Origin: Rhodococcus sp. HM1
Lineage (GTDB): Bacteria; Actinomycetota; Actinomycetes; Mycobacteriales; Mycobacteriaceae
DNA: 64,000 bases
Direction: 5' to 3'
NCBI RefSeq assembly: GCF_023218075.1
Contig: NZ_JALPTB010000005.1
Span: 62,001-126,000 of the forward strand
Positions 17,460 through 21,157 of this stretch are shown here, piece by piece. The notes below the pieces were generated by a model. The model ran no database searches and had not been told where the DNA came from. It saw only the letters and a program-made list of their open reading frames with translations. Within the stretch, counting starts at the first letter, position 1. Each line of letters starts with the position of its first letter. A program made the position numbers and the translations under genes.

Positions 17460-17474
17460 GAGAATGTAATTCTC
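17460..17474. promoter_or_regulatory. Perfect palindromic operator before the oxygenase operon
   Basis: GAGAAT-GTA-ATTCTC, a perfect match to the cluster consensus, 22 bases upstream of the CMD-family gene. The stretch 17413-17474 (CCGGACGTTGAC, then TGGAAA and the palindrome at the same spacing) recurs at 19752-19814, showing that this promoter has been duplicated. Confidence 0.82.
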
Positions 17475-17496: not shown

Positions 17497-18048
17497 ATGG
17501 CCCTGCTTCCACCGCTGCCCGCCGAGGAGTGGGACGACAAGACGCGAGCGGCGTTCATCGGGATGCTCGCGCGGGATCGCCAGAATCCGGAAGGAGCCGG
17601 CACGGCCCTGTCCGCGCTCGCGCACCACCCGGACCTGACCAAGGCGTTCCTGGGCTTCAGCGTCTATCTGCTGTGGCGGTCGACGCTGCCGCCGCGGTTG
17701 CGGGAGCTCGTGATCCTGCGGGTCGCGCACCGCCGCGACTGCGAGTACGAATCGCAGCACCACGTCCCGATCGCGCAGGAAGCCGGGCTGACCCTCGACG
17801 AGATCGAGGCAGCACGCATCGGTGAGGCCACCGACGAGTTCGAACGCACCCTGCTCGCCGCGGTCGACGAACTCGAGGACAAGAACCGGCTCTCCGAGCA
17901 GACGTGGAACGCGCTCGGCGAGCGGCTCGACAAGCGGCAGCGAATGGACTTCATCTTCACGGTCGGTGGCTACGGCCTCATGGCCATGGCTTTCAACACA
18001 TTCGGTATCGGACTCGGACACGACACCGAGCCCGGACAGGAAAGGTAG
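17497..18048 (+). CDS. Carboxymuconolactone decarboxylase (CMD/AhpD)-family protein
   Basis: A 183-residue helical protein of the CMD fold. The core motif LPPRLRELVILRVAHRRDCEYESQHH spans about 65-91. Only one cysteine (Cys83, then E-Y-E-S-Q-H-H) is present, so it lacks the CxxC pair of AhpD peroxidase-type members and is closer to the decarboxylase/unknown branch. ATG 17497 follows GAGAGGAGG. It is the first gene of the operon with the Rieske oxygenase, four bases before it. Such proteins are often found beside oxygenases in actinobacterial catabolic loci; a lactone-decarboxylating or detoxifying role is possible but not shown. Confidence 0.83.
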   Translation: MALLPPLPAEEWDDKTRAAFIGMLARDRQNPEGAGTALSALAHHPDLTKAFLGFSVYLLWRSTLPPRLRELVILRVAHRRDCEYESQHHVPIAQEAGLTLDEIEAARIGEATDEFERTLLAAVDELEDKNRLSEQTWNALGERLDKRQRMDFIFTVGGYGLMAMAFNTFGIGLGHDTEPGQER

Positions 18049-18052
18049 ATCC

Positions 18053-19336
18053 GTGCCCCATTTCCCGAAACCAGCCGAAGGCAGCTGGACCGAACACTGG
18101 CCCGAACTCGGCACCGCACCGGTCGACTACACCGACTCGTACGATCCGCAGTTCTTCGAGGACGAGCGCAACGCGATCTTCAAGCGCACCTGGCTCAACG
18201 TCGGCCGTGTCGAGAAGCTCCCCCGCAAGGGCAGCTACTTCACCAAGGAACTGCCCTCCGCCGGCCCCGGCACCTCGCTGATCATCGTCAAGGGCAACGA
18301 CGGTGAGATCCGCGCCTTCCACAACCTGTGCCGCCACCGCGGAAACAAGCTGGTCTGGAACGACTTTCCCGGTGAGGAGGTCGCCGGCAGCTGCAAGCAG
18401 TTCACCTGCAAGTACCACGCCTGGCGCTACAGCCTCGAAGGCGATCTGACCTTCGTCCAGCAGGAGGGCGAGTTCTTCGACCTCGACAAGCAGGACTACG
18501 GACTCAAGTCCGTGCGCTGCGAGATCTGGCAGGGCTTCATCTTCATCAACCTCGACGACAACGCCCAGCCCCTCGACGAATACCTCGGCCCGCTGGCCAA
18601 GGGCATCGAAGGCTACCCGTTCGACAAGATGACCGAGGTCTACAGCTACCGGGCCGAGATCGGCTCCAACTGGAAGCTGTTCATCGACGCCTTCGCCGAG
18701 TTCTACCACGCCCCGATCCTGCACATGAAGCAGGCGACCAAGGACGAAGCCGAGAAGCTCGCCGGCTACGGCTACGAGGCGCTGCACTACGACATCCAGT
18801 CGCCGCACTCGATGATCTCCTCCTGGGGCGGCATGGCCCCGCCCAAGGACCTGAACATGGTCAAGCCCATCGAACGCGTCCTGCGCTCGGGCCTGTTCGG
18901 ACCCTGGGACCGCCCCGACATCCCCGGCATCTCCGGCGACGAGCTGCCCGAAGGCATCAACCCCGGCAAGTACCCGGTCTGGGGCCAGGACTCCTGGGAG
19001 TTCTTCCCCAACATGACCCTGCTCATCTGGGCACCGGGCTGGTACCTGACCTACCACTACTGGCCCACCGCCCCGGACCGCCACATCTTCGAGGCCAACC
19101 TCTACTTCGTGCCCCCGAAGAACGTCCGCGAGCGCCTCGCCCACGAACTGGCCGCGGTCACCTTCAAGGAGTACGCACTGCAGGACGCCAACACCCTCGA
19201 AGCGACGCAGACGATGATCGGCACCCGCACCGTCACCGACTTCCCGCTCTGCGATCAGGAAATCCTCCTCCGCCACCTGCACAAGACCGTCGGAGACTAC
19301 GTCAAGGAGTACCGTGATGGCGCTGCTGCCAACTGA
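18053..19336 (+). CDS. Rieske non-heme iron oxygenase, alpha subunit
   Basis: A 427-residue ring-hydroxylating-type oxygenase. Rieske ligands are Cys93-x-His95 and Cys119-x2-His122. The mononuclear iron site is Asp212 and His219/His224 in DAFAEFYHAPILH, with the third ligand probably the Asp of EYALQDANTLEATQ near the C terminus. No beta-subunit gene is adjacent. It needs an electron donor; the KshB-like reductase at 39373, under the same operator type, is the best candidate. It may hydroxylate a ring or alkyl carbon. GTG 18053 follows AGGAAAGGTAG. Its first 11 codons are present again, nearly unchanged, in the scar at 19878. Confidence 0.92.
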   Translation: MPHFPKPAEGSWTEHWPELGTAPVDYTDSYDPQFFEDERNAIFKRTWLNVGRVEKLPRKGSYFTKELPSAGPGTSLIIVKGNDGEIRAFHNLCRHRGNKLVWNDFPGEEVAGSCKQFTCKYHAWRYSLEGDLTFVQQEGEFFDLDKQDYGLKSVRCEIWQGFIFINLDDNAQPLDEYLGPLAKGIEGYPFDKMTEVYSYRAEIGSNWKLFIDAFAEFYHAPILHMKQATKDEAEKLAGYGYEALHYDIQSPHSMISSWGGMAPPKDLNMVKPIERVLRSGLFGPWDRPDIPGISGDELPEGINPGKYPVWGQDSWEFFPNMTLLIWAPGWYLTYHYWPTAPDRHIFEANLYFVPPKNVRERLAHELAAVTFKEYALQDANTLEATQTMIGTRTVTDFPLCDQEILLRHLHKTVGDYVKEYRDGAAAN

Positions 19337-19646
19337 ATTCGCCGACCTCGAACCCTTCGCTGCCGACTGGGTCCTGGCCACCGAACCCGAGCGCTACGCA
19401 AAGCGCCTGGCCTCTACCATGCCCGAGATGCAGAAGTTCTACGACGCCGCATTCCCGCGCATCGAGGACGCCATCACCTACTGCGACAAATTCGACTACG
19501 ACGACCTGCCCGACGACGCCCGCGCCCTCGTGCACCTGATGCAGTCGCTCATCATGGTCTCCTTCCCCGTCGAAGTCTGGAAGCAGCCCCGCGTCCCCGA
19601 CAGCGGCGCGGCCTGGGCCGAAATCATCCACGAACCGGTGGTCTGA
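19317..19646 (+). CDS. Small hypothetical protein coupled to the Rieske oxygenase
   Basis: A 109-residue acidic, mostly helical protein of unrecognised family, with MQKFYDAAFPRIEDAI and DDLPDDARALVHLMQSLIMVSFPVEVW; no signal peptide, no cysteine motif (one Cys). ATG 19317 lies seven bases after AAGGAG and overlaps the oxygenase end by 20 bases, so the two are coupled. The overlap and the survival of its last codons in the scar downstream indicate a long association with the oxygenase. A small stabilising subunit or chaperone is plausible. A terminator hairpin follows. Confidence 0.75.
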   Translation: MALLPTEFADLEPFAADWVLATEPERYAKRLASTMPEMQKFYDAAFPRIEDAITYCDKFDYDDLPDDARALVHLMQSLIMVSFPVEVWKQPRVPDSGAAWAEIIHEPVV

Positions 19647-19661
19647 CGCCCGACGCACGAC

Positions 19662-19703
19662 GAACCGTCCCCCCGCAGCCGATGCGCCGCGGGGGGACGG
19701 TTC
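19662..19703 (+). terminator. Rho-independent-like terminator after the oxygenase operon
   Basis: GAACCGTCCCCCCGC (19662-19676) pairs perfectly with GCGGGGGGACGGTTC (19689-19703) around a 12-base loop, followed by CGTTCGT. It ends the CMD-oxygenase-small-protein operon before the duplicated promoter. Confidence 0.75.
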
Positions 19704-19799
19704 CGTTCGTCCGGGACCTTTCGGCCGACACCTTCACCGGACACATTCCCCGGACGTTGACGCCCCCCGACAACTGTGGAAATCTGATAGTCAATGAAT

Positions 19800-19814
19800 G
19801 AGAGTGCCATTCTC
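19800..19814. promoter_or_regulatory. Palindromic operator before the amidohydrolase operon
   Basis: GAGAGT-GCC-ATTCTC matches 11 of 12 consensus positions. A half-site GAGATT follows at 19821, 21 bases on. The preceding CCGGACGTTGAC and TGGAAA elements at the same distances as in 17413-17474 show common origin with the oxygenase promoter. Confidence 0.78.
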
Positions 19815-19851
19815 ATGAATGAGATTGGCTGAGCTCGGGTTCGCCGAGGCG

Positions 19852-19943
19852 ACGAGCTCGGACAGGAAGGTGGACCCGTGCCCCATTTCCCGAAACCAGC
19901 CGAAGGCAGCCGGGCCGAAGTCATCCGAGAACCGGTGGTGTAG
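19852..19943 (+). pseudogene. Deletion scar: Rieske 5' end fused in frame to 3' end of its small companion gene
   Basis: Bases from about 19852 copy the end of the CMD gene and the leader (GAGCTCGGACAGGAAGG), then GTG 19878 opens a 21-codon frame. Its first 11 codons (VPHFPKPAEGS) are those of the oxygenase at 18053, and its last codons (AEVIREPVV, stop 19941-19943) correspond to the end of the small gene (AEIIHEPVV). The join lies at TGGaCCGAA/TGGgCCGAA, a 9-base near-identity between the two genes. It is the remnant of a second CMD-oxygenase-small gene set lost by internal deletion. The reading frame is intact, has a good AGGAAGG site, and stops two bases before the amidohydrolase GTG, so it may now serve as a leader peptide for translational coupling. 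Confidence 0.85.
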
Positions 19944-19945
19944 CG

Positions 19946-21157
19946 GTGATTACACTCAAGGCCGCCGGCCTTCTCGATGTCGACAGCGGAAAGATCGTGC
20001 GCCCCGGCATCATCCGCGTCGAAGACGACAAGATCGTCGGGATCGGCGGTGAACCCGAAGGCGAGGTCGTCGATCTCGGCGACCAGATCCTCCTGCCCGG
20101 CCTGATGGACATGGAAGTCAACCTGCTCATGGGCGGGCGCGGCGAGAAACCCGTCTACTCCACGGTTCAGGACGATCCCCCGCTGCGTATGCTCCGCGCG
20201 GTCGGCAACGCCCGGCGCACCCTCCGCGCCGGTTTCACCACGGTCCGCAACCTGGGCCTGTTCGTGAAGACCGGCGGCTACCTGCTCGACGTCGCGCTGG
20301 GCAAGGCCATCGACGCGGGCTGGGTGGACGGCCCGCGGGTCGTCCCGGCCGGTCACGCGATCACCCCGACCGGTGGTCACCTCGATCCGACGATGTTCGC
20401 GGCGTTCGCCCCCGGCGTGCTGGACCTGACCATCGAGGAAGGCATCGCCAACGGTGTCGACGAGGTCCGCAAGGCGGTTCGCTACCAGATCAAGCACGGG
20501 GCCAAGCTCATCAAAGTCTGTGTCTCGGGTGGCGTCATGTCGCACACCGGAACACCGGGCGCACAGCACTATTCCGACGAGGAGCTGCGCGCGATCGTCG
20601 ACGAGGCGCACCGGCGCGGTCTGCGCGTCGCGTCGCACACCCACGGCGCGGACGCCGTCCGCGCGGCCGTCGCCGCCGGAATCGACTGCATCGAACACGG
20701 ATTCCTCATCGACGACGACGCGATCGACAAGATGGTCGCCGCCGGCACCTATCTCGTTCCCACCACCCGGCTCGCCGACGCGATGGACGTCTCGCACGCG
20801 CCGCCGGATCTGCAGGCCAAGGCCGCCGAGATGTTCCCCAAGGCCCGCACCTCGGTCAAGGCGGCCTACGAGGCGGGCGTGAAGATCGCGCTCGGCACCG
20901 ACGCACCGGCCATCCCCCACGGCAAGAACGCGGACGAACTCGTCGCGCTGGTCGAACGCGGCATGTCCGCACTGGACGCGCTGCGCGCCGCGACGATCAC
21001 GGCCGCCGAACTGATCGATGTCACCGACCGCGGCCGGCTGGCCGAGGGCCTGCTCGCCGACATCGTCGGCGTCCCGGGCAACCCGCTCGAGGACATCACC
21101 GTCACGCAGAACGTGCAGTTCGTCATGAAAGGCGGAAAAGTCTATGTCAACAACTGA
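19946..21157 (+). CDS. Amidohydrolase-superfamily protein lacking the HxH metal motif
   Basis: A 403-residue TIM-barrel hydrolase of the imidazolonepropionase/prolidase-like group. After the N-terminal beta sandwich comes PGLMDMEVNLL (51-61) where relatives have D-x-H-x-H: both histidines are replaced (Glu57, Asn59). Other site residues remain: TGGH (142-145), a Lys in AKLIKV (187 or 190) for carbamylation, SHTHG (His231, His233), EHG (His251) and GTDAP (Asp319). This might leave a single-metal or different chemistry. GTG 19946 has no clear ribosome site of its own and is two bases behind the scar peptide stop. Possible roles are hydrolysis of a cyclic amide or lactone, or decarboxylation. 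Confidence 0.82.
   Translation: MITLKAAGLLDVDSGKIVRPGIIRVEDDKIVGIGGEPEGEVVDLGDQILLPGLMDMEVNLLMGGRGEKPVYSTVQDDPPLRMLRAVGNARRTLRAGFTTVRNLGLFVKTGGYLLDVALGKAIDAGWVDGPRVVPAGHAITPTGGHLDPTMFAAFAPGVLDLTIEEGIANGVDEVRKAVRYQIKHGAKLIKVCVSGGVMSHTGTPGAQHYSDEELRAIVDEAHRRGLRVASHTHGADAVRAAVAAGIDCIEHGFLIDDDAIDKMVAAGTYLVPTTRLADAMDVSHAPPDLQAKAAEMFPKARTSVKAAYEAGVKIALGTDAPAIPHGKNADELVALVERGMSALDALRAATITAAELIDVTDRGRLAEGLLADIVGVPGNPLEDITVTQNVQFVMKGGKVYVNN

Follow-up and report, generated by a model that had tools for sequence, protein, structure and literature searches.

Directly upstream of an amidohydrolase gene of Rhodococcus sp. HM1, the end of a CMD-family gene and the beginning of a Rieske oxygenase gene are joined in frame to the end of the small gene that accompanies this oxygenase. 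This stretch is very probably what a duplication and a subsequent deletion have left of a second copy of the Rieske-small unit, an intact version of which was found in a related Rhodococcus. All positions given below without a locus or genome handle refer to the window, i.e. the whole stretch of 64,000 nucleotides that was analysed.

A deletion scar between the Rieske unit and the amidohydrolase gene

The locus contains the following features:

17497–18048, + strand: CMD-family gene (carboxymuconolactone decarboxylase fold; Pfam PF02627, E 6e-16)
18053–19336, + strand: Rieske ring-hydroxylating oxygenase alpha subunit, copy 1, with GTG start (Pfam PF00355, PF00848)
19317–19646, + strand: small companion gene, copy 1, 109 aa
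19662–19703, + strand: strong GC-rich inverted repeat 3′ of small gene copy 1 (18-nt arms, 94% complementary)
19757–19814, + strand: second promoter/operator P2 (TTGACG, 17 nt, AAATCT, palindrome GAGAGTGCCATTCTC at 19800–19814)
19850–19877, + strand: CMD 3′-end remnant with the Rieske ribosome site AGGAAGG at 19864–19870 (match to 18027 onward)
19878–19943, + strand: 21-codon fusion frame of 11 Rieske codons, one changed junction codon, 9 small-gene codons and TAG (translation, breakpoint scan)
19909–19919, + strand: deletion junction (breakpoint scan)
19946–21157, + strand: amidohydrolase gene (Pfam PF01979, E 4e-43)

A SnoaL-like gene and acyl-CoA dehydrogenase genes are present at the locus as well. 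No Pfam or NCBIfam family could be assigned to the small companion gene, which lies beside the Rieske gene in nearly all of 80 related loci compared. Between this gene and the amidohydrolase gene the window holds the GC-rich inverted repeat (a probable terminator-like hairpin without T tract), the promoter-like stretch P2 and the scar; consensus promoter and terminator scans of 19600–20000 yielded no match.

The region 19850–19943 begins with ~28 nt from the 3′ end of the CMD gene, continues with 11 codons of the Rieske gene and closes, in frame, with the final 9 codons of the small gene. Specifically, the left arm of the scar (19853–19919) matched the CMD/Rieske junction at 18027–18094 (91% over 68 nt, E 1.7e-21), while the right arm (19912–19939) matched the small-gene 3′ end (19615–19642; 89% over 28 nt, E 1e-4), bearing out the composition that the initial annotation had read from the letters. 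The match to the 3′ end of the CMD gene identifies this gene as the parent of the first ~28 nt, and the same piece also matches the CMD/Rieske junction of R. zopfii, from 19850. Moreover, two exact copies of a 30-nt piece of the Rieske gene are present in the window (18056–18085 and 19881–19910; 0 expected), and both arms are collinear, on the same strand and from one parental unit. The CMD fragment starts at ~19850, slightly before the originally drawn 19852, and P2 is part of the same relic.

The fusion frame (66 bases) translates as VPHFPKPAEGSRAEVIREPVV*, and 2 nt separate its TAG (19941–19943) from the GTG with which the amidohydrolase gene starts (19946). The intact frame, the good ribosome site (predicted SD of –13.5 kcal/mol) and the position of the stop were thus as initially described. 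A breakpoint scan placed the best breakpoint after 32–36 nt of the fusion frame, with an implied loss of ~1528 bp. The join itself had been given as TGG(A/G)CCGAA, a 9-base near-identity of the two source genes; this near-identity was recovered, but the scar actually reads CGGGCCGAA, with CGG (R) rather than TGG (W) as the junction codon. Because there are 185 pairs of 9-mers within one mismatch between the Rieske and small genes, such microhomology is compatible with the deletion without being distinctive, and permits but does not prove a mechanism.

A search of the 18 genus genomes (own genome included) and of 401 genomes of the family found no other scar, and there was no second Rieske-small copy elsewhere in the own genome. 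Searches for copies on plasmids returned distant matches only, and literature searches found no description of the locus.

An intact second copy in Rhodococcus sp. 105337

An intact second copy, which the initial annotation had proposed to seek in relatives, is present in Rhodococcus sp. 105337 (L034, G013). The gene order in this strain is CMD-Rieske-small, P450, ferredoxin and DUF1330, followed by a second Rieske-small pair directly before the amidohydrolase gene. The pattern that would have spoken against the initial reading, relatives with the spacer but always without a second oxygenase copy, was thus not what was found. The repeat covers 27 nt of CMD end ahead of the Rieske start, the Rieske gene, and the small gene as far as the CGGTG close to the stop of the latter; over these 1603 bp the copies show no mismatch. 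Although the two copies in L034 (6974–8576 and 11089–12691) lie ~2.5 kb apart, they are mismatch-free over this entire length, which suggests a recent duplication or ongoing gene conversion.

The flanks of the scar correspond to those of copy 2 in sp. 105337, with P2 upstream and the amidohydrolase gene downstream, and the P2 of the window is homologous to the sequence before this intact copy (82% over 51 nt, E 3e-9). The stop contexts can be compared as well: GTCTGAC of copy 1 in the window resembles ATCTGAC of copy 1 in sp. 105337, and GTGTAG of the scar is also found in R. zopfii and R. phenolicus, in the small gene next to the amidohydrolase gene.

Contig edges in two further genomes agree with a second copy. 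In G010, the contig with the CMD gene ends ~10 nt into the unit, and the contig with the amidohydrolase gene starts with GTAACCGCATG, one nt ahead of the stop of the small gene. A third G010 contig (C449, 3772 bp, with the P450 gene) starts with CTGAGACAAG, corresponding to the copy-1 type of stop context, and stops shortly behind P2, its two ends marking both sides of the spacer. In G002, the ends of two contigs coincide with the two outer edges of the unit. An unresolved two-copy repeat explains these edges in both genomes; in G011 and G012 the contigs break within the unit, which is at most suggestive of such a repeat.

A DUF1330-like gene (family assigned by eye) was also seen between the small gene and the amidohydrolase gene of Nocardia jejuensis (L041, 8580–8928), and resembles the DUF1330 gene between the copies of sp. 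105337.

Single-copy and fully deleted states among relatives

The usual order in 80 related actinobacterial loci is CMD-Rieske-small-amidohydrolase-SnoaL-ACD, and the gap from the small gene to the amidohydrolase gene is at most 12 nt in 66 loci. The closest relatives, R. zopfii and R. phenolicus (rpoB 96–97%), are single-copy, their small gene lies 3 nt ahead of the amidohydrolase gene (junction GTGGTGTAGCCCATG), and neither a second copy nor P2 was found in them. In the rpoB tree, the window is sister to R. zopfii and R. phenolicus (bootstrap 80 for that pair and 99 for the trio).

In the CH91-like group, the P450 and ferredoxin genes are still present, copy 2 is gone and a P2 homologous to that of the window (E 8e-4) stands before the amidohydrolase gene, so that this group appears to have lost copy 2 entirely. 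Its amidohydrolase start is a different, less structured one. In L033 (10481–10535), L138, L139 and L140, P2 runs straight into the amidohydrolase gene, which has its own site AAAGGA; this stretch may be a parallel, shorter scar. The GATGAAAGGACGA of the group was considered as a remnant of the Rieske site GACGAAAGGTAGA; the two are alike, but too short to support the claim. By blastn, no copy-2 remnants were detected upstream of uncoupled amidohydrolase genes in other loci.

Translation signals of the fusion frame

The initial annotation further proposed that the fusion frame might serve as a translational leader for the amidohydrolase gene, which was said to be without a ribosome site of its own. 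A strong site is indeed missing, but the retained last small-gene codons contain a weak stretch for pairing with the 16S tail, GGTGGTG, which constitutes the amidohydrolase site (–10.1 kcal/mol). Comparable stretches at coupled amidohydrolase starts in relatives have a mean of –11.75 (n=66), against –4.9 for random 20-mers. In terms of predictions only, the fusion frame has the better initiation site of the two, its start being 0.52 unpaired versus 0.22 for the amidohydrolase start. In relatives the amidohydrolase start is likewise more paired than those of the CMD, Rieske and small genes (unpaired 0.33 vs 0.44–0.47), with the ACD start structured similarly to it, while coupled and uncoupled starts differ weakly (accessibility P 0.04, uncorrected; MFE P 0.13); the similarly structured ACD start and this weak difference weigh against a leader role. 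As in the native operon, an upstream frame and a stop 2 nt before the amidohydrolase gene have been kept in the scar. No riboswitch-like or unusual folding of the whole leader was predicted. Based on these modelled signals, the chances that the fusion frame acts as a translational leader for the amidohydrolase gene are about even.

The same duplication and deletion could also have left the 21-codon frame as a passenger, with the amidohydrolase gene being translated from P2 transcripts via the weak site in the small-gene codons. We consider this a serious possibility, if one falling somewhat short of an even chance. The SD of this site is near the mean of intact relatives and the whole-leader fold is ordinary (z –0.76), as expected for a passenger, and the fusion frame is known from one genome and had a 1/3 chance of being joined in frame. 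However, although the frame differs from its parents at 7 positions, its start, strong SD and stop are all intact, and most of the amidohydrolase start is predicted to be paired. Moreover, the CH91-like group, in which copy 2 is missing, has a different and less structured amidohydrolase start with AAAGGA. Returning to the leader reading, we tentatively propose that a one-step deletion in the duplicated copy might have made a working leader ORF that keeps the coupling to the next gene although the coupling gene itself had gone, the CH91-like group, with its parallel loss of copy 2, having instead used a directly placed amidohydrolase site; this is conceivable, though not the way we would wager.

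History of the duplication and the deletion

The history initially envisaged, a tandem duplication followed by a deletion, was upheld for both events by the intact copy in sp. 105337 and the contig edges, but not for the arrangement: the intact copies are separated by the promoter/operator and the P450, ferredoxin and DUF1330 genes, and are therefore not head-to-tail. The duplication is probably old and common to the genus rather than recent in the window strain, and the event specific to this strain is the ~1.5-kb deletion inside copy 2. Because R. zopfii and R. phenolicus are both single-copy and without P2, these sisters must have lost copy 2, or the window lineage gained it separately. The simplest reading is one duplication early in the genus, the single copy of both sisters having presumably been restored by collapse between the repeats; alternatively, the window lineage may have undergone a duplication of its own, independent of the first.

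Import of the P2-scar segment from another Rhodococcus group would account for a P2 that is common to the window, sp. 105337 and the CH91-like genomes and not to the sisters. It is nevertheless unlikely, as the Rieske and CMD pieces of the scar are of the window/zopfii type and not the 105337 type (30/30 nt equal to the own copy 1), which in turn implies that copy 2 either was native or, by the time of the deletion, had become homogenised with copy 1. The absence of a second copy and P2 from both sister species could also mean that no intact copy 2 ever existed in the window lineage and that a partial duplication accompanied by template switching produced the scar in a single step. This is very unlikely, since P2 and the left and right edges of the scar all correspond to the intact copy 2 of sp. 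105337, and the contig edges of G010 and G002 agree with a two-copy unit. Finally, it is hardly credible that the 21-residue peptide functions as a small protein in its own right: despite its intact frame and strong ribosome site it joins two short protein-end pieces without a fold of their own and has no known conservation.

The reading we prefer, duplication and deletion with a retained leader, would run as follows. Starting from an ancestral CMD-Rieske-small-amidohydrolase operon, a unit consisting of the last ~27 nt of the CMD gene, the Rieske gene and the small gene would have been duplicated early in the genus, after which the downstream copy, adjoining the amidohydrolase gene, would have come under its own promoter/operator P2 and the copies would have been kept alike (as in sp. 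105337, where they are identical). In the window lineage, a ~1.53-kb deletion in copy 2 would then have joined Rieske codon 11–12 to the ninth-last codon of the small gene, leaving over P2, the 3′ end of the CMD gene including the Rieske ribosome site, the 21-codon frame and its stop 2 nt before the amidohydrolase gene. P2 would transcribe the amidohydrolase gene, and ribosomes would bind at the strong, exposed site of the fusion frame, terminate at its TAG and restart at the amidohydrolase GTG. In this way the termination-reinitiation coupling for which the native small gene was probably responsible would be maintained. Taken as a whole, from the history to transcription from P2 and reinitiation behind the leader, this explanation is likely to be right.

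Relation to known systems

Decay of duplicated gene units is common in bacterial genome evolution, and the scar represents a type of genome event that is already known, although the comparative evidence for it is unusually complete. It resembles other deletion remnants of duplicated units in that two arms of one unit are joined, the middle is lost and an intact copy exists in a relative. Unlike the usual remnants, however, the junction in the window keeps a start, ribosome site, frame and stop directly upstream of an operon gene. The locus shares its unit boundaries and P2 with sp. 105337, where copy 2 is intact and equal to copy 1 and the P450, ferredoxin and DUF1330 genes lie between the copies, whereas copy 2 of the window is scarred. 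Between them, the related species show the operon unit as a single copy, as two intact copies, with copy 2 fully deleted and with copy 2 scarred, and document unusually completely how such a unit was duplicated, homogenised and broken down.

With regard to the putative leader, a tested precedent exists in M. tuberculosis, where PPE2 depends on the translated upstream ORF uPPE2 by termination-reinitiation (PMC11260477). Both cases involve an actinobacterial host and a short upstream frame with good initiation (predicted for the scar) and a stop adjoining the start of the main gene. In contrast, uPPE2 overlaps PPE2 by AUGA and lies behind a riboswitch, whereas the scar has a 2-nt gap, no sign of a riboswitch and a translation that is predicted. 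If the leader role holds true, it would illustrate how a broken gene, and not noncoding sequence, can directly give rise to an upstream ORF.

P2 and the recurring palindrome

A 15-nt palindrome, GAGARTNNNATTCTC, recurs in the window, with 13 strand matches at no more than one mismatch versus 0.21 expected. The sites at 17460, 19800, 27232, 28036, 33493 and 39322 lie at the CMD gene, at P2, near acyl-CoA dehydrogenase/thioesterase genes, and in or beside an oxidoreductase gene. This palindrome is probably the operator of one regulon.

Because a P2-like promoter/operator directly precedes the P450 gene in L210 and L219 (same family; G278, G385), P2 may originally have served the P450. The P450 of these two loci is ~62% identical to the P450 encoded between the copies in sp. 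105337.
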